From Fibrobacter succinogenes (GTDB lineage: Bacteria; Fibrobacterota; Fibrobacteria; Fibrobacterales; Fibrobacteraceae), in contig CACVQR010000004.1 of NCBI GenBank assembly GCA_902756345.1, forward strand, positions 248,001 through 312,000: a stretch of 64,000 bases of DNA, given 5' to 3'. Both the position numbers and the translations under genes were made by a program. Each line of letters starts with the position of its first letter. The stretch's first letter is position 1. The notes under the pieces were generated by a model that made no database searches, was not told the DNA's origin, and was given only the letters and a program-made list of their open reading frames with translations. Below, one piece after another: positions 2,412-55,111 of the stretch.

Positions 2412-2496
2412 ATTCAGATTTCAGAGTTCGGAATTCGGGAAAAATAAAAGTTACGCACCAGTTTCCAATTCCGAAATCCGAATTTCTAATTCCGAA
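2412..2496. repeat. Inverted degenerate word repeat (family C, ATTCAGATTTCGGAATT type)
   Basis: Between the converging stops, a left block built from AATTCAGATTTCAG and TTCGGAATTC faces a right block built from AATTCCGAAATCCGAATT. Together they form an imperfect long inverted repeat around an AT-rich centre. The same words recur at 47919-47979 and 54987-55010. It may act as a bidirectional terminator, but the symmetry is not a clean GC stem with a T-run. Confidence 0.7.
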
Positions 2497-3090: not shown

Positions 3091-4083
3091 CTACTTTTTA
3101 ACAATCACGCCACCATACACGCGGAAACGCGTCACGCGGCCAAACTTCATTTCAGGAAGCGGAGTTTCGACACCGTTCAAAAGCATCTTGGCGATAGCCG
3201 TCGGATCGCCGATGGTTACGCACAAAGTATCGTTCGTGTTGTAAACCATGCGAACACCGGCCCTAGAAATATTTGCTTCCTTCAAGAAGGAATCCGCATC
3301 TTCGCGACGCTTGAGGCCCACCCAAGAAAGGGATTCGCCAGAACCAATCAACACGAAGTTCGTCTTGCTGGTCTTGGGAGAAGTCGGAACAGCAGCCTTT
3401 GCAGTATCCTTCTTGGAGTCAGACGAAATGAAAATTGTTGCAGATGCCGGCAGGTCCGATTTCTTGATGGCAGAATCCACCACAGCCTGGCTCACCGTCG
3501 TATTGGCAGCGGCCTGCTTTGCAGAATCCTTAGCGACAGAATCAGCAGCCATGGAATCAGCCGGGACAGCCTCGGCACCATCCGGAATTTCCTGGGTCAT
3601 GGAATCTTCGACTGCCACCGGGAGCTTTTCAGCGGGCTGCTGTTCGCTAGACTGCTGGGCCAGGGATTCCAAATCCAAGAAATGGGAAGCGACTAGGAAT
3701 GCCAGTACGAGAAGTACAAGCACCACGGGAACAGCCATACTCTTTTTCTTGATTTCGCCCTCTTTGAGGGGAGCAAGCTTGCGGCCAGCCGACACATCAT
3801 TAAAATCCGTTTCGACCGGAGCACCGCTTTCGGCATTGTAGGCCTTGAGTACCTGGTCGGCATTCAAATTCAAAACATGAGAAATAGAACGTAAATAACC
3901 ACGCACGTAAGCGGCCACCGGGAACGTTCTCCACTCGCCAGCTTCAATCGCCTTAATATAAGAGACTCCAAGCTTAATTGAATCAGCAAGTTCCTCCACC
4001 GTCATCTTGCGGCTTTCACGAACTCTTGCAATATACTGACCCACTTTCTCTTCGGGTCGCATTTCTTCTGCTGGAATAGACAT
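3091..4083 (-). CDS. RodZ-like helix-turn-helix membrane protein
   Basis: The 330-residue protein has an N-terminal cytoplasmic helix-turn-helix of the RodZ type (about residues 12-82, VGQYIARVRESRKMTVEELA). A linker, one membrane helix (about 116-136, VPVVLVLLVLAFLVASHFL), a long acidic Ala/Ser/Asp-rich periplasmic stretch and a C-terminal beta-rich region follow. RodZ links MreB filaments to the elongasome, so a role in cell shape is the likely one. The start at 4083 overlaps the maf stop as TAATG, implying translational coupling; upstream in-frame codons would extend into maf and are rejected. Confidence 0.85.
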   Translation of the reverse strand: MSIPAEEMRPEEKVGQYIARVRESRKMTVEELADSIKLGVSYIKAIEAGEWRTFPVAAYVRGYLRSISHVLNLNADQVLKAYNAESGAPVETDFNDVSAGRKLAPLKEGEIKKKSMAVPVVLVLLVLAFLVASHFLDLESLAQQSSEQQPAEKLPVAVEDSMTQEIPDGAEAVPADSMAADSVAKDSAKQAAANTTVSQAVVDSAIKKSDLPASATIFISSDSKKDTAKAAVPTSPKTSKTNFVLIGSGESLSWVGLKRREDADSFLKEANISRAGVRMVYNTNDTLCVTIGDPTAIAKMLLNGVETPLPEMKFGRVTRFRVYGGVIVKK

Positions 4084-4649
4084 TATACCTCTACCTTCAT
4101 ATCGACCAACATCTCGAGCATCCGTGCTACAGGCAAACCCACCACGTTGTAGTAGCACCCCCGGATTTCCTTGATAAGCCTTGCGCCACCGGTCTGAATC
4201 CCATAAGCACCAGCCTTATCCATCGGGTCCCTAGAATTTACATATTTTTCGAGCTCTTGTTTGGAGCAGTTTCTAAAAACAACCTCTGTTTCCTCGCATT
4301 CCGCTTTAATAATTTGTCCGCCATGGGCAATGGCCACGCCGGTTATTACTTTGTGCGATCTGCCATTCAGCTTTGTAAGCATTTCCAAAGCTTCCGCCTC
4401 GGAATGGGGTTTGCCCAAAGGCTTACCGTCCAGGAACACCAACGTGTCAAAGCCAAGCACGATTTCGGAGGGCATCTTGCGCGAAACGGCAAGTGCCTTT
4501 ATGGAGGCATTTTCTTTCGGAAAATCCAGCGGATTCGTCGACGTCGGCTTTTCTTCTTCGTTCGAAACCACTACTTCAAAATTCACACCGATTAGCTGCA
4601 GAATTTCTTTGCGCCTCGGCGACCCACTCGCAAGAATTACTTTAGTCAT
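4083..4649 (-). CDS. maf: Maf-family nucleotide pyrophosphatase
   Basis: Maf proteins hydrolyse non-canonical or modified nucleoside triphosphates to monophosphates. The 188-residue product starts MTKVILASGSPRRKEIL, the diagnostic N-terminal phosphate-binding motif. It continues with GFDTLVFLDGKPLGKP, TGVAIAHGG and DKAGAYGIQ, the family motifs in order. The start at 4649 is preceded by GAGGG; a longer reading of seven residues has no better signal. The gene is coupled to the downstream RodZ-like gene by a TAATG overlap, and separated from lptD by a 51-base spacer of repeated words. Confidence 0.95.
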   Translation of the reverse strand: MTKVILASGSPRRKEILQLIGVNFEVVVSNEEEKPTSTNPLDFPKENASIKALAVSRKMPSEIVLGFDTLVFLDGKPLGKPHSEAEALEMLTKLNGRSHKVITGVAIAHGGQIIKAECEETEVVFRNCSKQELEKYVNSRDPMDKAGAYGIQTGGARLIKEIRGCYYNVVGLPVARMLEMLVDMKVEV

Positions 4650-4700
4650 CGTAAATCCCTCATCCCTCACTGCTCATTACACACTTCACACTACACATTG
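4650..4700. repeat. Degenerate word repeat (family A, TGTGTARTGTGAA type)
   Basis: In the direction of transcription (minus strand) this spacer reads as a string of AATGTGTAGTGTGAAG, TGTGTAATGAG and AGTGAGGGATGAGGG words. It is built of the same short units as the spacers at 16545-16640, 43287-43334 and 53001-53067. The last GAGGG unit doubles as the ribosome-binding site of maf. Confidence 0.65.
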
Positions 4701-7166
4701 TTAATTCGTTTCCGTGCTACCCGCATTGAGCTTGATATCCGGCAAATCTCTCACGTAAATCGAGAAACTCCAGCCCGCGGCAGGCCCTGTAGGAGTCCAG
4801 CTAAAGTCAAGCTGCCAGCAGTGCAACACGCGGTTAAATGTAAAGCTATGCGTCACAAATCGTCCTTCGTTATAGTTATAACGGGTGCTGTAAGTCATTT
4901 CCCAGTTCTTGGTGGGTTGCAGACTTGCACTAATGCCGGTTGAATGCGTCACGCGGTCCTGAAACAAGTCGCGCGCCACGCGAGTGCTGCTAAAGCTGTA
5001 GCTATAGTCAAAGCCAAAGGTCCACTTGAGCATTTCATACTTGCCCAGCTGCGACGGCAAACCGCCATTGAATTCACCGCTCCAGCTAAAGCGCTTCGAA
5101 AAATCGTAACCCCAGTAAATGAGTTCCGGCATCTGCACCTTGTTCGGGTCTTCGGTAAACTTGTGGTACACGCTATGGCGGGTATTGATCGTGAACAGGT
5201 AATCCGGCAAAATCTGGAAACCGAACGAAGAAGTAATGTCCGAGAACTGCAGCGAATCGGCGGCAAAGTTATACGAAACGCTGTGGCGAGTCGTAAGCAA
5301 GCGACGTGTGCCGTACTGGTCTTCCACCGCCTTTGCCGTATCGCCCTTCGTGGTATCGGCCGCATGGCCCACCACCTTCAGGTACTTGATATCAAAGTCG
5401 TTGTTGAGTCCAAAACCAACAGTCTTCTGTTCAATCTGGTACGGAGTCTGGCCCAATAGCGGATGCGGAGCGAACTTTTTCACTGTATCAATTTCCGGTG
5501 CATACGTATACGACACACTCGGCGATAGCACATGCCTTGCGCCTGTAAAGCGACCAATCTCGGGAACCCAGATACCGTAAAGTTTCGTATCGGCCGTAAT
5601 GCTGTAATTGTGGTTGTAGGCCACCTGACCATATTCATCATGTTCGGGATCAAGGCTCATGTAGCGCTTGCGGTACTTCAGGGAATCTTCGGGATTAATC
5701 CAACCCGTTCCAGTCCAGTAGCCCGTAAAGGTCGCGCGAGGCGTGATGTTGATGACATCGAACAGCGTGCCCGAGTAATCCATGGAATACGTACCCGTAT
5801 AGCCCACATATTCTGCGGTCGTGTCTACGGCATTGACCGTATCGCGCGCACGCTTGGTGTAATAGTTGAAGCGGTTGTTAAAGTTGTAGTTGAACTTTTC
5901 AAGATAGCTTATGAACGAACCGTCTTCGTACGCTTCCTCGTCTTCATCGAGTTCAAAGGTAAAGAGCTGGCCACTCATGCGGTACTGGATATCCGGAATT
6001 TCGCGCTCCATCATGTCCGTCACCAAGTTGTGGTTCTGGCGGGCCTTCACGGTAAGGCTCTTGTTCGTTCCGAAGCGGCCCGAGTAAGTCAACTGCGCAT
6101 TTGCTTGCTGGTTCAAGATCGTTTCTGCATCGAGCGCCTTATCCTTACGAATGCTCTGGCTACTGACGAACGAGCCCGAACCACTCAAAGTCTGCTTGCC
6201 GTCGGGAGTCAAGTTCTGGTTGTGCGTAAAGCGAATATCGTAGCCGCTGTTCGCCATATCGAATTCTTCGAGGTACGACGTATAAGACACGTTTCCGTCG
6301 AGCACGTAACGTTTCTTGTATCGCACTTCGCCCGTCAGAGTCGAGCGTTCGAACCTAGCCTCGTCACCTTCGATAATGTCGCCCTTGACCGTTGCATCCC
6401 AGTAATCGTTTGCCGCGTAATAGAAACCGAGATTACTCATGTAGTAACCCTGTTTCTGGTCACCGCCGAACTTCGGAGTCAAAAGGCCCGACTTACGTCC
6501 ACTCTTCAAGGGGGCAACAATCATCGGGAGCACTGCCACCGGCACATCGGCAATGTTCAGTACCACGGGGCGCGCGGTAATCGTCTCCTTGGGCTTTACC
6601 ACCATGCGCCGTCCGTAGAAATAGAAGTGCTGGTGAGTGGAATCGTTACAAGTACTGAAGTCGCCACGCGCAATCTGAATTCGTTGGTCAGGGAGCCTTC
6701 GGACTTCCATGCCGTTCAGTTGCTGGTTATCTTGATATGTCGTTGCGTAATAGATTTCACCGATACGGCTTTTCATGTTGTACTTGAGCCGCATACCCGA
6801 AAGCGATGGATTCTTGGTTTCGCGCAGCACCGGATCGCCCGTCGCCGCCAGGATGCTGTTTTCCTGATCAAACAAAATCGTATCGGCATCCAGAGTTGCC
6901 GAACGATACTTGAGCTGGGCACTGTTATTCAGGTTAAAGGTCGATTTATCGACATCGTAAACCAAGTCCACGGCGCGGTATTCAATGGTATCTACACCGG
7001 TCGTGTCGTTCATCCAGTCGACCTCTGTCGTATCCTCTTCTTCCTGAACACGCTCTTCGAGTTCAAAGCGAGTCATCTCCTGGCCGAAGGCGGCCGGAGT
7101 GGCGATGGCAAAAATCCATAATGCCAAAAAAGCCCACAGAATACGATGGGTTCTAGATAAAATCAC
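4701..7166 (-). CDS. lptD: LPS-assembly outer membrane protein LptD
   Basis: The 821-residue protein has a signal peptide (cleavage near PAAFGQ). An N-terminal OstA-like region follows (about residues 65-200: DVDKSTFNLNNSAQLKYRSA, MRLKYNMKSRIGEIYYA, then VVKPKETITARPVVLNIADVPV). It then reaches PMIVAPLKSGRKSGLLTP, a strong LptD landmark at the plug/barrel boundary. The rest alternates short polar and aromatic strands, as in an LptD-type barrel. It would insert LPS at the outer membrane surface. The few cysteines visible do not show the proteobacterial disulfide pattern. It heads the run to maf, the RodZ-like gene and hisB. A terminator of the upstream gene lies at 7183-7214. Confidence 0.9.
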   Translation of the reverse strand: MILSRTHRILWAFLALWIFAIATPAAFGQEMTRFELEERVQEEEDTTEVDWMNDTTGVDTIEYRAVDLVYDVDKSTFNLNNSAQLKYRSATLDADTILFDQENSILAATGDPVLRETKNPSLSGMRLKYNMKSRIGEIYYATTYQDNQQLNGMEVRRLPDQRIQIARGDFSTCNDSTHQHFYFYGRRMVVKPKETITARPVVLNIADVPVAVLPMIVAPLKSGRKSGLLTPKFGGDQKQGYYMSNLGFYYAANDYWDATVKGDIIEGDEARFERSTLTGEVRYKKRYVLDGNVSYTSYLEEFDMANSGYDIRFTHNQNLTPDGKQTLSGSGSFVSSQSIRKDKALDAETILNQQANAQLTYSGRFGTNKSLTVKARQNHNLVTDMMEREIPDIQYRMSGQLFTFELDEDEEAYEDGSFISYLEKFNYNFNNRFNYYTKRARDTVNAVDTTAEYVGYTGTYSMDYSGTLFDVINITPRATFTGYWTGTGWINPEDSLKYRKRYMSLDPEHDEYGQVAYNHNYSITADTKLYGIWVPEIGRFTGARHVLSPSVSYTYAPEIDTVKKFAPHPLLGQTPYQIEQKTVGFGLNNDFDIKYLKVVGHAADTTKGDTAKAVEDQYGTRRLLTTRHSVSYNFAADSLQFSDITSSFGFQILPDYLFTINTRHSVYHKFTEDPNKVQMPELIYWGYDFSKRFSWSGEFNGGLPSQLGKYEMLKWTFGFDYSYSFSSTRVARDLFQDRVTHSTGISASLQPTKNWEMTYSTRYNYNEGRFVTHSFTFNRVLHCWQLDFSWTPTGPAAGWSFSIYVRDLPDIKLNAGSTETN

Positions 7167-9300: not shown

Positions 9301-9317
9301 ACGCATATAAAATACAA

Positions 9318-9416
9318 AAATTAGTTAGAAGAACTTAGTTGGTAGAACTTAGAGATTTCATCCTAAGCCTTAAACTCTAAGTTCTAAGCTCAAAGATCTA
9401 AGTTCTAATATATGCG
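9318..9416. repeat. Degenerate word repeat (family B, TTAGAACTTAGA type) reaching into a coding end
   Basis: On the minus strand the words TTAGAACTTAGA, GAGCTTAGAACTTAGAG and AAGGCTTAGG are followed by the opposite-sense words TCTAAGTTCTA, CTAAGTTCTTCTAACTAA. This makes an imperfect inverted repeat of about 100 bases. Its first part (9370-9416) lies inside the HAD-family gene and encodes its last 14 or so residues plus the stop. Confidence 0.8.
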
Positions 9417-10038
9417 GAATATGGTAATCCACATAGGGAGCGCTATCGGTGGTCGGATTCACGAAAACCGTAGTCCAGCCGCGGCGGTGCGCAGGTTCCA
9501 GGTTGCGAAGACCATCATCCAGCAACACAATGTCGCGTTTGTTCTCAGGCATTTCTAACCCCATGGTAGGGAGCTTTTGCGCAAGCCACTTTTCCATTTT
9601 GTCGTAAGCACTTTCGTGGGGTTTTCCTTCCCAGCCGAGTAACTTCAAGTCAAACACGCCGTCAATCGCCGAATCAATCCCCATGTGCAACATGCCCGCC
9701 TCACTCCAGTCGTGGCGGCCATTGGTAAATACAAAATGCGGACCCTCCAGGCTTTTCAACAGGGCCAGTTTTTCAGGAGCCTTCTTGGGGTAAATCAAGT
9801 ATTCCGGCTCATGGATGAAGTCGAAAAATTCGTCGGGATCGGTACCGTGCATCGCCATCAGCCCAGCAAGCGTCGTTCCGAACCGTTCCAGGTAATCGGT
9901 ACGCACCTTATGGGCCATTTCAAAATCGCAGCCGACCGTTTTTTGCACAAACAGTGAAATGCGGTGGTCCAGGGAATTCAGCACGCACCGTTCTTCGGCT
10001 CCGTATAAGGTCAAGTCGTAGTCGAACAACCAAACCAT
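9370..10038 (-). CDS. HAD-superfamily pyrimidine 5'-nucleotidase-like hydrolase
   Basis: The 222-residue protein has the HAD motifs in order: motif I LFDYDLTLY (nucleophile Asp6, acid Asp8), motif II FTNGRHDWSE, a lysine in GKPHESAY, and motif IV LLDDGLRNLEPAHRRGWTTVFV. The arrangement matches SDT1/pyrimidine 5'-nucleotidase-type HAD enzymes, which dephosphorylate nucleoside monophosphates; the true substrate cannot be read from sequence. It starts six bases after dgt, so nucleotide metabolism is a consistent context. The C-terminal ILELRSLSLELRV is encoded by the family B repeat, suggesting that the original end of the gene was replaced or extended by the repeat. Confidence 0.85.
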   Translation of the reverse strand: MVWLFDYDLTLYGAEERCVLNSLDHRISLFVQKTVGCDFEMAHKVRTDYLERFGTTLAGLMAMHGTDPDEFFDFIHEPEYLIYPKKAPEKLALLKSLEGPHFVFTNGRHDWSEAGMLHMGIDSAIDGVFDLKLLGWEGKPHESAYDKMEKWLAQKLPTMGLEMPENKRDIVLLDDGLRNLEPAHRRGWTTVFVNPTTDSAPYVDYHIPHILELRSLSLELRV

Positions 10039-11352: not shown

Positions 11353-11364
11353 GGGTAAAAGATA

Positions 11365-11418
11365 GAAAAAAGAAGTAGACAGTAGGAAGTAGGAAGTAGA
11401 CTGTGGGCAGTAGGCAGA
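11365..11418. repeat. Degenerate word repeat (family D, CTACTTCCTACTG type) upstream of dgt
   Basis: In the sense of dgt this spacer is a run of CTGCCTACTGCC, CAGTCTACTTCC, TACTTCC and TACTGTCTACTTC words ending 12-20 bases before the ATG. Positions 11372-11392 are the exact reverse complement of 15843-15863, upstream of ung. Confidence 0.8.
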
Positions 11419-11429
11419 ATGATGAGCGA

Positions 11430-13487
11430 TTAGGATTTTCGTAAGCCGAGATACGCAATTACCATCGAATCAACCACCACAAACACAGCGAGCCAAATCG
11501 CCGACCCATTCTGGAATCCATAACTATGCAAGCCCACACCAAGCAAATTCACCCCGAACCAACAGAGGAACGTGACAATCACGTTGAGCGCATTCAACAA
11601 TGCAAACACCCGCGGCGAGATAATCTTGCCCGCCCACAAATGGAGCGAGAGCAGCGCCCAGAGAATCACAAATAGCGCACCGCATTCCTTCGGGTCAAAC
11701 CCCCAGAAACGACCCCACGCAAAATCGGCCCATACGCCCCCAAGAAGCGTTCCAAGAACCGTAAACACCATGCCAAAAACGAGCGTTCCATACATCAGCG
11801 AAAAAATCGGAGTCTGCTTTGCTTTTCGGTAAAGCACCAAATGGGCAACCACCCCCGACAAAATCATCGAAGCAAAGCCAAGCGCAATCGCAAACACATG
11901 AACCGTCAGGAACACCGAAGAGTTCAACACATTCGGAATCGGTTGGAATGTATCGCCCGGTTCCAGCACGAACTTGGCAAAGAATAAAAGAGCTGCAGCC
12001 ATAAACGTCACGGGAATCATCAAGGTATAAGTGCGACGCTTACAGAAAATAAACGCTCCCGATTCAAAAACCATCAGCATCAACGCCACCAGCATCACAA
12101 TTTCGTACAAACTAGACATTGGAGGACGGGCAGCAACATAAGCGCGCATCGTAAACAACGCCGTCAAAATGACTGCTGTAACGATACACACTATATTGGC
12201 TACAGCATCTAGCTTTAAAGAACGGAATACCACATTCAGCGAAGAAAGAATACATGCCAGCAAAGCACCCACAAAGGCAAATAAGGCTAGATTCAGCCAG
12301 TGGTACAAAACTTCAGCCTTTAACCGGCGAGGGTATACATTGGAATGCGTCAGGGAATGCTTAGCGATAATCGAAAACGCTGTACGATCCGCAACCGATT
12401 CATACAGAAGTACATTTGAATAAAGACGCCGCATTTCAGCAGTCGCCGGCAAGTCATCGTTGCGCGTCGCATAAAGTTTGAGGATATCTTTCAACGGGGC
12501 CAGCTCCGCATAGCTCACGTAACGCTTTTGATGCGGCAAGCGAAGAATCACGGACACATCGCTACGGAGTACCTTGAACAAGTCATAATTTCTGGCCGTT
12601 CCGGGTGTGACAAGAATATGGCGAACCACATTTGCCGCCGTATGTTTCTTATAGGTCACACGGCCGCTCAAGTCGTCAAGAAAGCCTCGCGCAAAAGAAT
12701 CAAAGGGACGCACCGCGTTTTCAACCAAAATCGGAGTATCCGAATGCAGAGCCTCCCAAATCGGGACCGGGCGCTCTGAAGCATGAGCGTCCATGGGGAA
12801 AGCCGCAAGAATGGCCACAAAGGACAAAGCCTTAAGCACTTCTAGCTTTTTTGACGTCTGCTTACAACGGACCTTTATCGCATAATGAACAAACGCCCCT
12901 AAAAGGAACAACGCCATAAACGCATAAGGCACAAAACGCAAGGGGTCGTAGGTTGCCTTGTACAAATCCACCGACGTTCCCATTACATCGTCTACCCTGC
13001 CATGATAATGAACCGAGTAAGCATATTCTTTTTCATTTACCTCGACCGGAGTCACTCTCAAGCTGTCATCGACGGCGAAAAAAGAAACCGTCGCGTTGGA
13101 AATAGACACATCTCGATACCCGTTGTATTCCCGCTTGATTTCACTTTCGGCAATTCCGCCAACAAGCAAAACCAGCAGCGCGACATGCATTATCCACAGT
13201 CCCACATTCTTCAGTCCGCGAGGCATGCGGAACAAGAGCGACGCGAGGACATTCACGGCAGACAATACCACAAGGCCTTTAAATGCCGGCAAAGGAATGA
13301 CGCCCAAGACCCAAATGAAATAGCTACCAAAAAAGCGATCCACCGCGAAAGATGCCGGAAGTCCGGCAGACTCGGCATGGGCCTGCGCCAATACGCCCCA
13401 AAAAGTCAGCAGCAAAAACGCCACCAACAGCACGGCCGTAAACTTCAAGGATGCCAATTTCTTTATAACGACGAGGCTTCTACCCAT
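11430..13487 (-). CDS. Fused ResB/CcsA (CcsBA-type) cytochrome c biogenesis protein
   Basis: The 685-residue membrane protein begins with a ResB-like half: a first helix (TAVLLVAFLLLTFWGVLAQ), several further helices and a periplasmic loop. It then switches at about residue 395 to a CcsA-like polytopic half. The latter contains the tryptophan-rich haem motif WADFAWGRFWGFDPKECGAL, with Phe where many homologues have a second Trp. Such fusions form system II synthetases that carry haem across the membrane and ligate it to CXXCH apocytochromes. The start overlaps the upstream phosphatase gene by 25 bases, so the two are probably co-transcribed. Confidence 0.9.
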   Translation of the reverse strand: MGRSLVVIKKLASLKFTAVLLVAFLLLTFWGVLAQAHAESAGLPASFAVDRFFGSYFIWVLGVIPLPAFKGLVVLSAVNVLASLLFRMPRGLKNVGLWIMHVALLVLLVGGIAESEIKREYNGYRDVSISNATVSFFAVDDSLRVTPVEVNEKEYAYSVHYHGRVDDVMGTSVDLYKATYDPLRFVPYAFMALFLLGAFVHYAIKVRCKQTSKKLEVLKALSFVAILAAFPMDAHASERPVPIWEALHSDTPILVENAVRPFDSFARGFLDDLSGRVTYKKHTAANVVRHILVTPGTARNYDLFKVLRSDVSVILRLPHQKRYVSYAELAPLKDILKLYATRNDDLPATAEMRRLYSNVLLYESVADRTAFSIIAKHSLTHSNVYPRRLKAEVLYHWLNLALFAFVGALLACILSSLNVVFRSLKLDAVANIVCIVTAVILTALFTMRAYVAARPPMSSLYEIVMLVALMLMVFESGAFIFCKRRTYTLMIPVTFMAAALLFFAKFVLEPGDTFQPIPNVLNSSVFLTVHVFAIALGFASMILSGVVAHLVLYRKAKQTPIFSLMYGTLVFGMVFTVLGTLLGGVWADFAWGRFWGFDPKECGALFVILWALLSLHLWAGKIISPRVFALLNALNVIVTFLCWFGVNLLGVGLHSYGFQNGSAIWLAVFVVVDSMVIAYLGLRKS

Positions 13488-15794: not shown

Positions 15795-15840
15795 GCACAC
15801 TCGTATACACTCGCTCCAAATTTTTAAACCACTTCTAACC

Positions 15841-15863
15841 GTCTACTTCCTACTGTCTACTTC
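15841..15863. repeat. Family D word repeat immediately upstream of ung
   Basis: The block consists of GTCTACTTCC, TACT and GTCTACTTC words and ends three bases before the ung ATG, in the same orientation relative to the gene as the copy before dgt. It occupies the place where a Shine-Dalgarno would be expected, and none is visible. Confidence 0.8.
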
Positions 15864-15866
15864 ATT

Positions 15867-16544
15867 ATGTCCGTCAAACTCGAAGAATCCTGGCTGAACC
15901 TGCTCGCAGACCAATTCGAGCAGCCATATTTTAAACAAATTAAAGAAAAACTTTTGCAAGAAAAGGCAGAACACCACGTGGTTTACCCGCCGGGATCCCA
16001 GATTTTTGCGGCCCTCGACTTTTGCCCTGTCGATAAAGTCAAGGCGGTCATCATCGGCCAAGACCCCTACCACAACCCAGGCCAAGCTCACGGACTTTGC
16101 TTCTCTGTACCTATGGGAATCCAGCCGCCCCCCTCGCTCATCAACATTTTCCAGGAACTGCACGACGACCTGGGGATCAATCCGCCCCCGCACGGGAACC
16201 TCGAAAGCTGGGCTCACCAGGGAATCCTTCTACTGAACGCTTCGCTCACGGTTCGCGCCCACATGGCAGCAAGCCACGCCGGAATCGGTTGGCAGCAATT
16301 CACCGACACGATCATCAAGCGCCTGTCCGAAACTCGCGAGAACCTGGTATTTTTACTTTGGGGTAGCTTCGCCATCAAAAAGCAGGAACTCGTCGCCAAG
16401 AACCGCGGCCATCTGATTTTAACCGCCCCGCACCCGAGCCCTCTTTCGGCTTACCGCGGGTTCTTCGGTTGCAAGCATTTCAGCAAGGCAAATGAATATT
16501 TAAAGAGCAAAGGTCTCGAGCCCATCGACTGGAGCATCAAGTAG
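15867..16544 (+). CDS. ung: Uracil-DNA glycosylase (family 1)
   Basis: The 225-residue enzyme removes uracil from DNA in base-excision repair. It has the catalytic water-activating loop GQDPYHNPGQAHGL (Asp66), the LLNASLTVRAH segment, LLWGSFAIKK for uracil recognition and the minor-groove loop HPSPLSAYRGFFGCKHF (His189). Length and motif order are those of classical UNG. The start follows a family D word repeat and lacks a visible Shine-Dalgarno, so translation may be weak or leader-dependent. Confidence 0.97.
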   Translation: MSVKLEESWLNLLADQFEQPYFKQIKEKLLQEKAEHHVVYPPGSQIFAALDFCPVDKVKAVIIGQDPYHNPGQAHGLCFSVPMGIQPPPSLINIFQELHDDLGINPPPHGNLESWAHQGILLLNASLTVRAHMAASHAGIGWQQFTDTIIKRLSETRENLVFLLWGSFAIKKQELVAKNRGHLILTAPHPSPLSAYRGFFGCKHFSKANEYLKSKGLEPIDWSIK

Positions 16545-16640
16545 ATGTGGAATGAGTAATGTGAGATGAGTAATTAAGCATACAGAAATGTAAAATTAAA
16601 TTTTTCATTCTACATCACACATTACACATCACACATTATA
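16545..16640. repeat. Inverted degenerate word repeat (family A) between ung and the DUF4321 gene
   Basis: The left block contains GATGTGGAATGAGTAATGTG and AGATGAGTAATT. The right block contains CATTCTACATCACACATTAC and ACATCACACATTATACGC, the opposite-sense versions. They flank an AT-rich centre (AAATGTAAAATTAAATTTTT) and form an imperfect inverted repeat. Confidence 0.75.
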
Positions 16641-16678
16641 CGCATCCCGCTGTCTTCTATTTTTCTATATTACCAGCC

Positions 16679-42602: not shown

Positions 42603-43286
42603 ATGCACACTCTCTATATTGTAGCAACCCCCATCGGGAACATGGAAGACATCACCTACCGGGCTGTGCGGACATTAAAGGAAGTTCCGCTGGTGCTTGC
42701 CGAAGACACACGCCACACGCGAGTGCTCTTTGACAATTACGGCATCAACACGCCCATGGAAGCCTACCACGACTTCAATAAAGAGAAGGTGACCCCCAAG
42801 TACGTAGAATTCCTGAAAAACGAAGGCGATATCGCCCTAGTAAGCGATGCAGGCACCCCCGGAGTCGCAGACCCGGCTTTCAACCTAGTTCGCGAGTGCG
42901 TCCGCGAAGGAATCGATGTCCGCGCCATCCCTGGCCCTTGCGCCATGATTACCGCACTTGTTTCAAGCGGCATGCCTACGGACCATTTTTGCTTTCAATA
43001 CTTTTCGCCCAAAAAGAGCGCCCAACGCATTCATCTGCTTGAAAAGCTAAAAGACGAAGAAGCGACCCAGATTTTCTACGCAAGCCCGCACAACATCGAC
43101 AAGTTCGTCGAAGAAATCGGCCAAGTCTTTGGCGAAATCAAGATTGCACTGATGCGTGAACTCACCAAGAAATTCGAAGAACACCTGATTGGCACTCCAT
43201 CCGAAATCACGGCACACTTCAAGGCTCACCCGCCCAAAGGCGAATTCGTACTGATTTTCAATCCCCAAGACAAGAGTGGACTGTAG
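42603..43286 (+). CDS. rsmI: 16S rRNA (cytidine(1402)-2'-O)-methyltransferase
   Basis: RsmI adds the 2'-O-methyl group to C1402 in the ribosomal P site. The 227-residue protein has the tetrapyrrole-methylase fold motifs LYIVATPIGNMEDITYRAVRTL, LAEDTRHTRVLF, LVSDAGTPGVADPAFNLVREC, IPGPCAMITALVSSGMPTDHFCF and ALMRELTKKFEEHLIGTP. It is slightly shorter than the E. coli enzyme, lacking its C-terminal extension. The upstream 52 bases contain TAACTCAGAACTATTAACTAA words related to family B repeats. Confidence 0.97.
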   Translation: MHTLYIVATPIGNMEDITYRAVRTLKEVPLVLAEDTRHTRVLFDNYGINTPMEAYHDFNKEKVTPKYVEFLKNEGDIALVSDAGTPGVADPAFNLVRECVREGIDVRAIPGPCAMITALVSSGMPTDHFCFQYFSPKKSAQRIHLLEKLKDEEATQIFYASPHNIDKFVEEIGQVFGEIKIALMRELTKKFEEHLIGTPSEITAHFKAHPPKGEFVLIFNPQDKSGL

Positions 43287-43334
43287 TGGAATGTGGAATG
43301 TGAAATGTGAAATGTGGGATGTGGAATGTGAAAT
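43287..43334. repeat. Direct word repeat (family A, TGTGGAATGTGAAA type)
   Basis: The entire spacer between rsmI and lnt is built from the words GTGGAATGTG, GAAATGTG, GAAATGTG, GGATGTG, GAATGTGAAAT. It forms four to six imperfect direct copies that end exactly at the lnt ATG. Confidence 0.85.
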
Positions 43335-45266
43335 ATGTTGAATAAGATTAAAACTCTCCCGAAGATTTTCTGGATTTACGTAGCGGTTCTTTTTATTGCA
43401 GAAGTGATTGTTTTTTCGCTGCGTCCCGACAAACCGGGTCTTTACACGCAGGCTTTGCAAGTACTCCCCCTGGCAGTAACGATTCCGTTTCTGTTTTTCA
43501 AAGACACCCGAAAAAATTTCAAACGCACGCTTTTCACGTTCGCAATCGTTTCTTTTGCATTCCTTGCGCTTGACTACAACATTGGCGACTTGAATAAAAT
43601 CGGACACGCCGGTCTGATTCAGATTATCCTGACGGCATGCCCCATCGGCATTTTCTGGATTACTCTTTTTGTCCGTTGGAATTACAGACATATCAAAACT
43701 CGCGAATCGCGCACGCCCTTATTTCTTTCCTGTTTTGCATGGGGCCTGTTCGCACTCGCCTACCCACCCATGCCCTTGGGCCCAGCAGCTTTACTGTTGC
43801 TTGTTCCATGGTTCATCGTCCTTAACCGATTCACCCGCGGTCAAGCCATGTTCGCCACCTTCTGGTCGGGCATGCTTTACAACACCATCAACTACTACTG
43901 GATTTACAACGTCATGCACGTGGAGACTGCTCCTTCGGGGCTGATTCTCCTCGGACTCTTTTTGCTGATAGCCTTCTTTAGCGCCTACAACACATTAGCC
44001 GGATTCGTGTACACGCTTGCAAAAGAAGCCCCAGCCAAAATCCGCATCGTATTGCTGATACTTTTCCCGATCTTTTACGCAGGCCTTGAAATGACCCGCA
44101 CCTATGGCGACTTCGCCTTCCCGTGGAGCCACTTGGGCTATGTTTTCGGTAACAGCCTTGAACTTTTGCAGATGCTCCCCTATATCGGAATTTTTGGCTA
44201 CACGATTTTGGTCATCGCTTCGAACCAAGCCGTAGCCCAGACACTTTGCAAAGTTCAAGACATCAAAAAAGCAATCCCTGTTCTAGCCGTCCCCCTTTCC
44301 ATTTTTGTAGTGTTACTCATTCAAGGCAGTATCGTCTTGTCTAAAACCGAAGCCCAACCGTTCTACAATGCAGACGCCGAAGGCAACCCCTCTATCGCCC
44401 TTGTACAACCAAGCATTGCACAGGGTGCCAAATGGAGCAAGGAACGTTTCGATAACATTGTCAACAAGACTCTCGGCATGGTCAACGACAGCATTAAGAA
44501 ACATGCTGACCTTATCGTGCTTGCCGAAACCGCAATCCCCGACCACATTCGCAGGCAGCCCGGCATCATTGAACGCCTGCACGAAGTCGCAGACAGCAAG
44601 AACTCTCAACTTTTAGTAGGCGCACTCGACTACCGTCGCAATCCGCGCGGAAGCATCCGTAAATTCGATGTCTACAATGCCTCGTTCCTGTTCACTCCCG
44701 GCGATTCTCACTTCCCGAAGCGCTACATCAAAAAGCACCTGGTGCCTTTTAGCGAACGAATTCCGTTTGACGAAATCTTCCCGATTTTAAACTATGTGGA
44801 TCTTGGCGAAGGAGACTTTGTCGCCGGTAAAGAAACCCCCGTCTACCAGCCGTTCCTGTGGACACCCTACATTTGCTACGACGCCATTTTTGGTGACCTG
44901 GTGCGCGAAGCGATCCGCGAAGGATCCCGCCTCATGGTCAACATTACCAACGACGGCTGGTTCGGCCGGAGCACCGCCCCTTACCAGCACCTGAACTTGA
45001 TCCGTTACCGCGCCATCGAAAACGGCATGCCGGTGGCACGCCTCGCCAACAGCGGTGTTTCCGCATTCATCGACCAGTACGGCCACTACGACGGCAATAC
45101 CGAAATATTCACCGATCGCGTTGTACAAAGAAAAGTGCCGCTCAAGACCCGCGACACTCTATACAGCCGTATTGGCGACTTTGTTGAAATGTTCTTGCTG
45201 TGCTTTTTCGCAGCCTACCTGATCGCAACGCTTTTGCTCTCTTTTATCAACCGCAAACGCGGCTAG
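43335..45266 (+). CDS. lnt: Apolipoprotein N-acyltransferase
   Basis: Lnt N-acylates the diacylglyceryl-cysteine of lipoproteins in the inner membrane. The 643-residue protein has about seven or eight N-terminal membrane helices and a nitrilase-type periplasmic domain with the catalytic triad Glu398 (LAETAIPDH), Lys466 (RYIKKHLVPFSE) and Cys514 (ICYDAIFGD). The lipid-facing loop NDGWFGRSTAPYQH follows, and a last helix closes the chain. It is longer than E. coli Lnt by an extra N-terminal membrane block (about residues 1-100). The many lipoproteins in this window fit its presence. The ATG directly follows a word repeat. Confidence 0.96.
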   Translation: MLNKIKTLPKIFWIYVAVLFIAEVIVFSLRPDKPGLYTQALQVLPLAVTIPFLFFKDTRKNFKRTLFTFAIVSFAFLALDYNIGDLNKIGHAGLIQIILTACPIGIFWITLFVRWNYRHIKTRESRTPLFLSCFAWGLFALAYPPMPLGPAALLLLVPWFIVLNRFTRGQAMFATFWSGMLYNTINYYWIYNVMHVETAPSGLILLGLFLLIAFFSAYNTLAGFVYTLAKEAPAKIRIVLLILFPIFYAGLEMTRTYGDFAFPWSHLGYVFGNSLELLQMLPYIGIFGYTILVIASNQAVAQTLCKVQDIKKAIPVLAVPLSIFVVLLIQGSIVLSKTEAQPFYNADAEGNPSIALVQPSIAQGAKWSKERFDNIVNKTLGMVNDSIKKHADLIVLAETAIPDHIRRQPGIIERLHEVADSKNSQLLVGALDYRRNPRGSIRKFDVYNASFLFTPGDSHFPKRYIKKHLVPFSERIPFDEIFPILNYVDLGEGDFVAGKETPVYQPFLWTPYICYDAIFGDLVREAIREGSRLMVNITNDGWFGRSTAPYQHLNLIRYRAIENGMPVARLANSGVSAFIDQYGHYDGNTEIFTDRVVQRKVPLKTRDTLYSRIGDFVEMFLLCFFAAYLIATLLLSFINRKRG

Positions 45267-47918: not shown

Positions 47919-47979
47919 CGATTCCGGATATCTGAATTCAGATTTCGGAATTGAATTCAGACACCCTTTTTTCGTACTA
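47919..47979. repeat. Degenerate word repeat (family C) at a convergent junction
   Basis: GATTCCGGATATCTGAATTC, AGATTTCGGAATT and GAATTCAGACACC words fill the gap between the UreE-like gene and the converging CotH gene. GAATTCAG occurs twice and parts are mutually inverted. The downstream part is T-rich. Confidence 0.65.
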
Positions 47980-53000: not shown

Positions 53001-53228
53001 TGTGAGGTGAGAGATGTGAAAGGCGAGGTTAAACGATCCTCATTTCACATTCCACATTACATTTCGAGTTTAGTAAATATTTTAGACAAATTAAAATTCA
53101 ACATCCTAGAGACTTTCCTGGGGTGTTTTTTCATATTTATCGCCTTTTTTTTTACAATTTTTCATTTTTTATTATTCGTTTTTGATTTAAAAAGCTACAT
53201 TCAGTATGATAAAGCATTCGAGGCGCTT
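53001..53228. repeat. Family A inverted word repeat followed by an AT-rich leader
   Basis: Positions 53001-53028 (TGTGAGGTGAGAGATGTGAA) and 53037-53067 (ATCCTCATTTCACATTCC, ACATTACATTT) are opposite-sense word blocks forming an imperfect hairpin just after the glnS stop. The remaining 160 bases are AT-rich, with long T runs, and lead to a GAGG before the ATG at 53229. No gene is seen. Confidence 0.7.
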
Positions 53229-54986
53229 ATGGAAAACGCAAAAAAGACCATCAACCTGTTCCTGAAGAACAAGTATAGTCCGAACGAACTCAAAGCCGAG
53301 CTCTACAAGGCGGGTGTCGCCGCTATGGAAGAAGGCTGGACCTTCATGGACGCCAGTTTCCAGCTGGGCGGCAAAGCCCGCGACGACGGCATGGACGGCG
53401 AAGAGGTCGAACAGACTCTTCGCCGCGCGTTCTCCGCCGAAAAGCGTACGGCAGAGCGCCCTCAGGAACAAGTGGCTCCGGCGCAGAACGCCGCCCCGGC
53501 TGCGGAAGGGGCACCCCAGGCACAAGCTGCGGCCGCCCCGCAGGCGGTTGCCATGCCAATCATCACGCCGCTGTCGGCGAACATGATTTCCATGGAACAG
53601 ATGCTTGCCATGGGTCTTGACACCCAGTCCCTGGAACTATTGCAGAACTTCAAGATTGACCCCGAAGCGCTTTCTATTCCCTGGCCTGCCGCCGACTGGC
53701 GTAAGGACCTCGCCAAGCTTCTGGAAGCCGCATTCGACCCCGAAGAAACAATTTCGTTCAAGGTATCGAATACCCCGGACAGCACCGAAGAACTCGTATC
53801 GAACATCATTGGACAAGACGACTCGATCAAGAAAATCATGAAGAGTCTCGACAGTCCCGAAGGCGCCCTCCTGTGCATTAACGCCGTGAAGGGGGGCGAC
53901 AATGTCTCGGACGAATCGTTCCGCTACCGCTATGTGGTGGTCGATAACCCCAAGATGTCCTTGGCCAAGCAGCTCGCCTACTACAAGGCCCTGAACCTTC
54001 CCTGCGCCGCCTTGGTGAACACAGGCGCGAATTCCGTGCAGGCATGGGTCAAGATTTTTGCCAACGACGAAGAAGAATATAACGATCGCGTTGACTTCCT
54101 TTTCAAGACGCTTGATTCCCAGGGATTCAAGGTCGACCCGAGCAACAGTAACCCGCACATGATGGTGCGTATGCCTGGCGTGCTCCGCGGCGGTAAGCAG
54201 CAGTACTTAATCGGTCTTGAACAGGGTGCCAAAAACTTTAAGGAATGGCAGGAATGGGTGGAATATTCCCTTGACGGAAAGCCGCTCATTGAACTGGCAA
54301 GCGATACCGAAGAAGCTCCCAAAAAAGACCAGACGATTGTTGAAAACATGCTCCGTGCCGGTGAATTTTTCTTGTTCACGGCACCTCCGAAAAGCGGTAA
54401 GTCGCTTGCACTCATGGATTTAGGTCTGTCTATTTGCTACGGCGAAGACTGGTTCGGCAATTCAACATCGTCTAGCGATGTTCTGTTCATCAACTTCGAA
54501 CTGACCAAGTCCGTGTTCCTGAACCGCCTTTACCTGTTGGCCGGCAAGCGCAATCTGAATGCGAGCACCCCGAAGTTCGGCTTCCTGAACTTGCGCGGTA
54601 CGGCTCTTTCACCGATCGAAACGGCTCAGCTTATCGCCAAGCGTATTCAAGGTGCCAAGCGACTCGAAAACCACGATTACCGCGTTGTCGTAATCGATCC
54701 GATTTCGGCCGTATTGCATAACCCGAAGTCTACTCGTTTGAATGGCGCTCCGCACCAGATTTTGATGCAGATGGTCGACACCATAATCGCCCTCACAGGG
54801 TGTGCAGTCGTGTCGTCTTGCAACCTGGACGAATACCCCTACCTCGAAGCCCGCGCGGACTCGCTCATCAAGCTTTCACCGGTGGAAGGCAGCCTGAACC
54901 TTTACCAGATCAATGGGACCTTCCGCGAATTCCCGAAGATGCTCGCCCGCGAATGCTCTTGGATTTACCCGAGATTCCTTGTTTAA
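53229..54986 (+). CDS. Degenerate primase-like domain fused to a RecA-like (RepA-type) ATPase
   Basis: The 585-residue protein has a helical N-terminal part (about 1-73), an Ala/Pro/Gln linker (about 75-115), a middle domain (about 150-345) and a RecA-like ATPase with Walker A APPKSGKSLALMDLG (about 383-398) and Walker B RVVVIDPISAVL. The middle domain follows the archaeo-eukaryotic-primase-like layout seen before RepA-type ATPases in mobile elements: RYVVVDNPKMSLAKQ, LPCAALVNTGANSVQAWVKI, VRMPGVLRGGKQQYLIGLEQG. The histidine expected in the SxH motif is Gln, so primase activity is doubtful. The start at 53229 has GAGG before it. Confidence 0.8.
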   Translation: MENAKKTINLFLKNKYSPNELKAELYKAGVAAMEEGWTFMDASFQLGGKARDDGMDGEEVEQTLRRAFSAEKRTAERPQEQVAPAQNAAPAAEGAPQAQAAAAPQAVAMPIITPLSANMISMEQMLAMGLDTQSLELLQNFKIDPEALSIPWPAADWRKDLAKLLEAAFDPEETISFKVSNTPDSTEELVSNIIGQDDSIKKIMKSLDSPEGALLCINAVKGGDNVSDESFRYRYVVVDNPKMSLAKQLAYYKALNLPCAALVNTGANSVQAWVKIFANDEEEYNDRVDFLFKTLDSQGFKVDPSNSNPHMMVRMPGVLRGGKQQYLIGLEQGAKNFKEWQEWVEYSLDGKPLIELASDTEEAPKKDQTIVENMLRAGEFFLFTAPPKSGKSLALMDLGLSICYGEDWFGNSTSSSDVLFINFELTKSVFLNRLYLLAGKRNLNASTPKFGFLNLRGTALSPIETAQLIAKRIQGAKRLENHDYRVVVIDPISAVLHNPKSTRLNGAPHQILMQMVDTIIALTGCAVVSSCNLDEYPYLEARADSLIKLSPVEGSLNLYQINGTFREFPKMLARECSWIYPRFLV

Positions 54987-55010
54987 TTCAGAATTCGGAT
55001 TTCGGAATTA
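54987..55010. repeat. Family C word repeat
   Basis: TTCAGAATTCGG and ATTTCGGAATTA follow the stop of the ATPase gene. They share their words with the spacers at 2412-2496 and 47919-47979 and are partly self-complementary. Confidence 0.65.
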
Positions 55011-55042
55011 CTCAAGTAGGAAGTTGCCTAGCCACGAATGAG

Positions 55043-55082
55043 TCGTCCTGAGCAAAGGGCTATGCCCGAAGTCGAAGGGTCC
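55043..55082. repeat. Dispersed element, CGTCCTGAGC...GAAGTCGAAGG type
   Basis: TCGTCCTGAGCAAAGGGC, TATGCCC and GAAGTCGAAGGGTCC resemble the CATCCTGAGCGAAGTCGAAGGATC element that recurs in many bacterial genomes. GGGC and GCCC pair around TAT. It lies in the spacer before the TrmA-like gene. Confidence 0.65.
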
Positions 55083-55111
55083 AAAGATAAAGTAAAAGTA
55101 AAGAATTAAAA

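Follow-up and report, generated by a model that had tools for sequence, protein, structure and literature searches.

Short intergenic arrays in a Fibrobacter genome are a fast-changing form of the known bacterial heptamer repeats, and they are new in that one genome holds several lexicons of words, that the arrays are phased to stop codons, and that orthologous slots switch from one word family to another. What was found in them is what marks bacterial intergenic heptamer repeats: a 7-bp tandem unit kept in phase, presence at many intergenic loci, and variation between close relatives. The window, a stretch of 64,000 nucleotides (C4:248001-312000), belongs to genome G000, which comprises 3.36 Mb in 27 contigs. 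Heptamer over-representation in bacterial spacers is an old question that is usually put to polymerase slippage, as stated in two papers that cite a 2007 survey by Mrazek and colleagues (PMC4679880, PMC4692102). The independence of units, the independence of arms, and the switching of slots described below contradict plain single-unit slippage. With hundreds of arrays and close relatives at hand, the origin of the over-representation becomes testable, and the arrays show one way in which a gene can have its end and its stop codon replaced.

Heptamer words, word families and abundance

Periodicity was scored for each period from 3 to 15 in 244 spacers, delimited with our own simple codon-usage gene caller in a 464-kb sample of G000, with shuffled spacers as the control and a score of at least 15 as the cut-off for an array. 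Further stretches of G000 were targeted, and some stretches were picked with the knowledge that they contained matches. Period 7 reached the cut-off in 44/244 spacers and in 0 shuffles, so the enrichment survives comparison with composition-matched sequence; only 7 and its multiple 14 were in excess, and the other periods gave 0. The pattern ATGTGNAATGTG matched 126 times genome-wide, compared with 14 matches for the reversed control pattern, and within the 464 kb it matched 33 times in intergenic sequence and 0 times in genes, with 4 matches to the reversed control. Together these counts exclude chance. Array density was about 15 per 100 kb (61 arrays in 400 kb), which by extrapolation gives roughly 500 arrays for G000.

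At least six word families, A to F, were found in G000, so that the "Family A" of the initial sequence-only reading is one of several. The family A word is AATGTGN, in which positions 3 and 4 are almost invariant and position 7 is free (A, T or G, seldom C). Family B words are AGTAGGA, AGTAGAC and AGTAGGC, with AGTAG fixed and the last two bases GA, AC or GC; AA was seen only once. These restricted choices in families A and B indicate that words are discrete alternatives and not the product of single-base drift. Family C (ATTCGGA/ATTCAGA, also written TTCAGAN/TTCGGAN or ATTCNGA) is close to palindromic, family D is built of GTTCTAA/TTAGAAC and also TTAGAGC, family E of ATGAGTT, and family F of GGTTAGT and GGGTTAG. 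A search of the window against Rfam gave no match to the arrays; tRNA alone matched.

The arrays of the window are listed in Table 1. The spacer between rsmI and lnt reads TAG-TGGAATGTGGAATGTGAAATGTGAAATGTGGGATGTGGAATGTGAAAT-ATG, with the TAG at 43284-43286 and the ATG at 43335, and the array begins directly after the stop codon; as had been claimed from the letters alone, the spacer consists of repeated GAATGTG-type words and nothing else. The same reading gave a unit length varying from 7 to 10 bases, which proved to be an effect of parsing, since period 7 runs throughout 43286-43337 (score 33) as seven units in one phase. Its related strings at 4650-4700, 16545-16640 and 53001-53067 were found as described.

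Table 1. Heptamer arrays within the window
Position	Strand	Family and form	Context	Relatives
2412..2496	.	C (TTCAGAN/TTCGGAN), inverted pair	flanked by convergent stops	
4650..4700	-	A, single array	G-sense on minus strand; begins one base past TAA of gene 4701-7076, ends at ATG of gene 4083-4649	
9307..9408	-	D (TTAGAAC/TTAGAGC), pair	5' arm codes final residues and stop of gene 9370-10038	
11356..11433	+	B (AGTAGGA/AGTAGAC), array	antisense to both minus-strand neighbor genes	short family A array in G003
15829..15866	+	B, C-arm words (CTACTTC/CTACTGT)	immediately ahead of ATG of gene at 15867	spacer missing in G003
16545..16641	+	A, inverted pair	after TAG	homologous array in G003, with units gained and lost
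43287..43334	+	A, single array (AATGTGN x7)	fills rsmI-lnt spacer; sense of both genes	
47919..47979	+	C, short inverted pair		near-identical in G010; differs in G030 and G005
53001..53067	+	A, inverted pair	first word TAATGTG includes stop TAA	missing or replaced in four relatives
54985..55009	+	C, array	begins inside TAA stop	family B array with TAG in G030

Elsewhere in G000, a divergent spacer (L044:16044-16286) holds a long, near-perfect run of more than 10 family E units (ATGAGTT) that is missing in G003. Small GC hairpins (GCGGC-NNN-GCCGC) often lie within or beside heptad arms, in spacers of L007, L019, L042, L046, L050 and L129.

Placement at stop codons and pairing of arms

Arrays were densest in convergent spacers (2.46 per kb), followed by co-directional (1.50) and divergent ones (0.52). 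In co-directional spacers the distance to the upstream stop was at most 5 bp for 20/36 arrays, compared with 7.2 expected (p=3e-6), and no such bias toward start codons was seen. Among arms within 8 bp of a stop, 44 were in the sense orientation and 1 was apparently antisense, the latter being a family C array scored both ways; exceptions to the orientation occur farther from stops, as in the family B array at 11356-11433. Array phase relative to the stop was non-random in families A, B and C (chi-square p=0.036, 0.0002 and 0.001, respectively), and family B adjoined TAG in 11/14 cases (p=0.0003).

The sense strand of every A and B array contains stop codons in at least one frame, usually in several, and the antisense strand is stop-free in 63/82 family A and 34/40 family B arrays; a sense array can thus abut or overwrite a gene end without the protein being extended. 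In family C sense stops are mostly missing, yet placement is as in A and B. The array supplies the gene's own stop in two cases, gene 9370-10038 of the window and L115 12588-13856, which ends inside an A array. The former closes with family D words in G000 (...ILELRSLSLELRV, stop) and with one of family A in G003 (...TLIKM, stop), and the array provides the stop in both species.

Most family A arrays are paired, with a G-arm, a loop such as AATGANTAATTA, and then a C-arm. The inverted pairs noticed in the sequence-only reading were confirmed and found to follow one order, with the G-arm first in 41:0 pairs (A 34:0, B 3:0, C 4:0). Stable folds are predicted, with a median of -21.5 kcal/mol (z -5.8), but they are irregular. 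Single arrays such as that at 43287 lack such a hairpin.

At base 7, the N of the family A word, Watson-Crick pairs between arms numbered 23, against 30.8 expected (p=0.04), and covariation between arms was absent at every unit position, which indicates that neither arm was copied from the other. The hairpin is present, yet its individual base pairs are not maintained. Adjacent units were no more alike than random draws (lag 1 p=0.27 for A and p=0.44 for B, and likewise over lags 1-2); in family B, identical words recurred more often than expected at lags 3-5 (lag 4 p=0.001). Strings of three units shared between arms of different loci numbered 5, with 3.5 expected, which is no excess over chance, and the 7-base grammar by itself yields 80-90% identity. 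Two copying routes were rejected on these data: snap-back copying of arms, by the deficit of N pairs and the lack of any near-perfect arm pair among the A hairpins inspected, and copy-paste of arms from a master, by the chance-level sharing of strings. In family D a complex two-arm layout is kept at five loci.

A 50-bp core (ATAAACGATACTTGGTGCTTTAGCACCTTAGTAGAGTT...CCTCTATGA) lies between or beside family A arms at L050:16279-16403, L114:5842-5959 and L115:13857-13970. At L115 the core has GGTACT/AGTACC in place of GGTGCT/AGCACC, a change on both sides that points to a maintained hairpin.

The sequence-only reading had also offered a role as terminators, which is generally unsupported. A TTTT run follows the array in 14/82 flanks, a weak signal against a background of 9%, and canonical terminators are not clearly avoided in array-bearing spacers; a classic role in intrinsic termination fits poorly, and a minority of arrays could terminate.

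Turnover between species

Comparisons were made at the species level, between G000 and its relatives G003, G005, G010 and G030, and no single mutational event was caught in them. In the rsmI-lnt slot, where G000 has a single A array, G030 has an A hairpin with the same first 12 bases (Lnt is 98% identical), G005 has another A hairpin, G010 has a B array, and G003 has none. At L116 5979, G000 has a family A array, G003 and G005 both have family D, and G030 carries B. Orthologous slots change family, or hold no array, when species with genes of about 90% identity are compared. Spacers without heptads were conserved like genes in G003 and G030 (0.90-0.92 identity), compared with about 0.5 identity for spacers with heptads in one species only. 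Two arrays were 97-99% identical across species where their flanks were 90% identical, so that arrays can also persist without change; turnover is mostly by replacement and not by steady slippage.

Unit gain and loss in orthologous spacers, named as a check in the sequence-only reading, was seen between species at 16545, L044 13332 and L117 5614, where homologous arrays have gained or lost 1-3 units and these do not duplicate the adjacent ones. Of the slippage or template switching proposed there, gain and loss in multiples of 7 and the family B excess at lags 3-5 are in agreement; single-unit slippage is not the main process, given the lag 1 results in both families and the dominance of whole-array replacement between species. 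The type of stop codon differed in 17/30 comparisons with heptads, against 40/161 others (p=0.0009, with some genes counted repeatedly). G010 presents a nearly clean empty site at L130 6637. In the empty and filled pairs inspected, inverted arms were present and neither constant ends nor target duplications were evident.

Heptad-free slots in relatives often hold other hairpin-rich sequence, for example CACGAGCCTGCGGCCCTTTGAGCAAAGAGG, as at window 54987-55111 in G005 and G010 and at window 53001 in G003 and G030, a hint of further dispersed spacer families. Identity between G030 and G000 genes is uneven along the window, jumping from about 70-80% to 99% and back. Such a mosaic suggests that these species recombine frequently.

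Origin of the arrays and relation to known repeats

Short tandemly repeated heptanucleotides (STRR) are dispersed in heterocystous cyanobacteria. The view that no element of this form had been described was too strong, as heptamers are on record in Xanthomonas (PMC4692102) and Nostoc (PMC3488679). The heterogeneous 7-bp units of Xanthomonas and Nostoc are GGGNATC and GGGGA(C/T)T, and Xanthomonas has about 185 mostly intergenic arrays per genome, lying nearer to the 5' neighboring ORF, with 70-75 convergent inverted pairs (PMC4692102). The Fibrobacter arrays resemble them in combining fixed and free positions and in varying strongly in length and sequence between close species, and differ in that the Xanthomonas heptamers have G-tracts and one reported word type per genome, whereas G000 has at least six families, phasing to stops, and family switching. 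G-tracts of three or more are missing from the words AATGTGN, AGTAGGA/AC and ATTCNGA, and families A-D are without them. According to PMC3488679, which cites Costa et al. (2002), the P6b hairpin of the Nostoc tRNA-Leu (trnL) intron is made of degenerate heptanucleotide repeats; like our arrays it has them in two pairing arms, with copy-number variation and two alternative classes per locus, but it is one site in a self-splicing intron, and the Fibrobacter arrays stand at hundreds of gene ends. The TAACTGA repeats of Beggiatoaceae, cyanobacteria and Bacteroidetes are likewise intergenic 7-bp arrays with indels in 7-nt steps and with stops in all three frames in one orientation; unlike ours, they are mostly exact direct repeats of one word, located just upstream of start codons in Beggiatoaceae (PMC4679880). 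REP/BIME elements are also dispersed extragenic palindromes, some adjoining stop codons, but they lack period 7, consist of one conserved GTAG-tagged palindrome, and are tied to a Y1 transposase, to which G000 gave no match. In the open-access literature we found no paper on such repeats in Fibrobacter, and a search with the sequence as text gave nothing relevant.

Tentatively, and with a little less than even confidence, we take the arrays to be a dispersed degenerate-heptamer satellite that would have colonized gene 3' ends, would be turned over by multi-unit slippage and exchange, and would be tolerated because stop codons lie on its sense strand. Arrays would grow, shrink and exchange by replication-associated slippage of several units at once, and also when the template switches from one array to another or two arrays recombine; the five or six bases that are fixed in each word would keep the phase. 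Recombination in flanking genes probably exchanges entire slots between strains as well. Purifying selection against antisense arrays at gene ends would set their place and orientation, and an influence on the 3' ends of mRNAs, if there is one, would be either incidental or a function that is weak and tuned. Adjacent units are more independent than slippage predicts, so exchange would have to be frequent. Against a satellite origin stand the G-first rule in co-directional spacers, where the C-arm protects no gene of its own, the placement of family C mostly without sense stops, and the 50-bp core at three loci, since it means that some larger elements are copied. That core, near-identical and nested at the three loci with a compensatory change in one, also bears on an unlikely alternative, in which the arrays are non-autonomous MITE- or REP-like mobile elements, with heptads as their terminal structure and an unrecognized enzyme acting in trans. 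Whole-element alignments across loci, the family D layout and the nearly clean empty site in G010 speak for mobility of this kind, but constant ends and target duplications were not evident, unit strings were shared between loci at chance level with grammar alone accounting for 80-90% identity, and G000, the richest genome in family A matches and 99.2% complete, gave no match to Y1 (RAYT; PF01797) or reverse transcriptase (PF00078) profiles. REP/RAYT transposition and reverse-transcriptase-based retro-copying or diversity generation, considered as specific routes, are likewise unsupported.

It is also improbable that the arrays are functional 3'-end RNA hairpins (mRNA stabilizers, terminators or translation modulators) in which selection would keep the fold alone, whichever words build it. 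The stability of the predicted folds and the richness of convergent over divergent spacers are consistent with such a role, and stop-proximal REPs are reported to stall ribosomes (PMC12306157, after earlier work); however, covariation is absent, N pairs fall slightly below chance, a T-run follows in only 14/82 flanks, spacers with arrays show no clear avoidance of canonical terminators, relatives often have nothing in the slot, and single arrays form no such hairpin. The sharp separation of fixed from free positions, in A as in the AGTAG of B, would suit arrays to which a sequence-specific protein binds, as DNA or as RNA, recognizing the five or six fixed bases, N being a spacer. This is very unlikely, as unrelated word families in the same slots across species would call for several proteins, and placement tracks stop codons and not start codons or promoters.

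Among Fibrobacter species, family A matches ranged from 0 to 126, with G000 having the most, and species poor in family A carry other words. A scan of 84,980 species for A hairpins recovered 86 stretches, compared with about 0.4 expected in random uniform sequence by our own estimate; about 50 were in Fibrobacter and the remainder in Flavobacterium, Prevotella, Clostridia, Oscillochloris (Chloroflexi), Acidobacteria and others. Long sense ORFs ended between -25 and +9 of the element edge at 28/63 element sides outside Fibrobacter (control 5.6%; peak at 0-1) and at 55/86 in Fibrobacter. Neighborhoods of the non-Fibrobacter hairpins hold more heptads with different words, and because AATGTG was the sole word searched, nothing follows on a universal word across phyla. 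The independent-looking arms and units, the order of G-arm then C-arm, and the stop-anchored A-type hairpins in Flavobacterium, Prevotella, Clostridia and Chloroflexi would fit an undescribed process, shared by several phyla, that writes degenerate heptamer words behind stops nearly unit by unit, which we consider quite unlikely. Family A-type runs occurred in only 8 stretches of viral sequence, so phages are no evident carrier. L219 and L225 lie on a viral-labeled contig (IMG/VR 3300031867_000530) whose gene boundaries hold several heptad runs, of GAAATGT and other words, and which may be a mis-binned bacterial contig.
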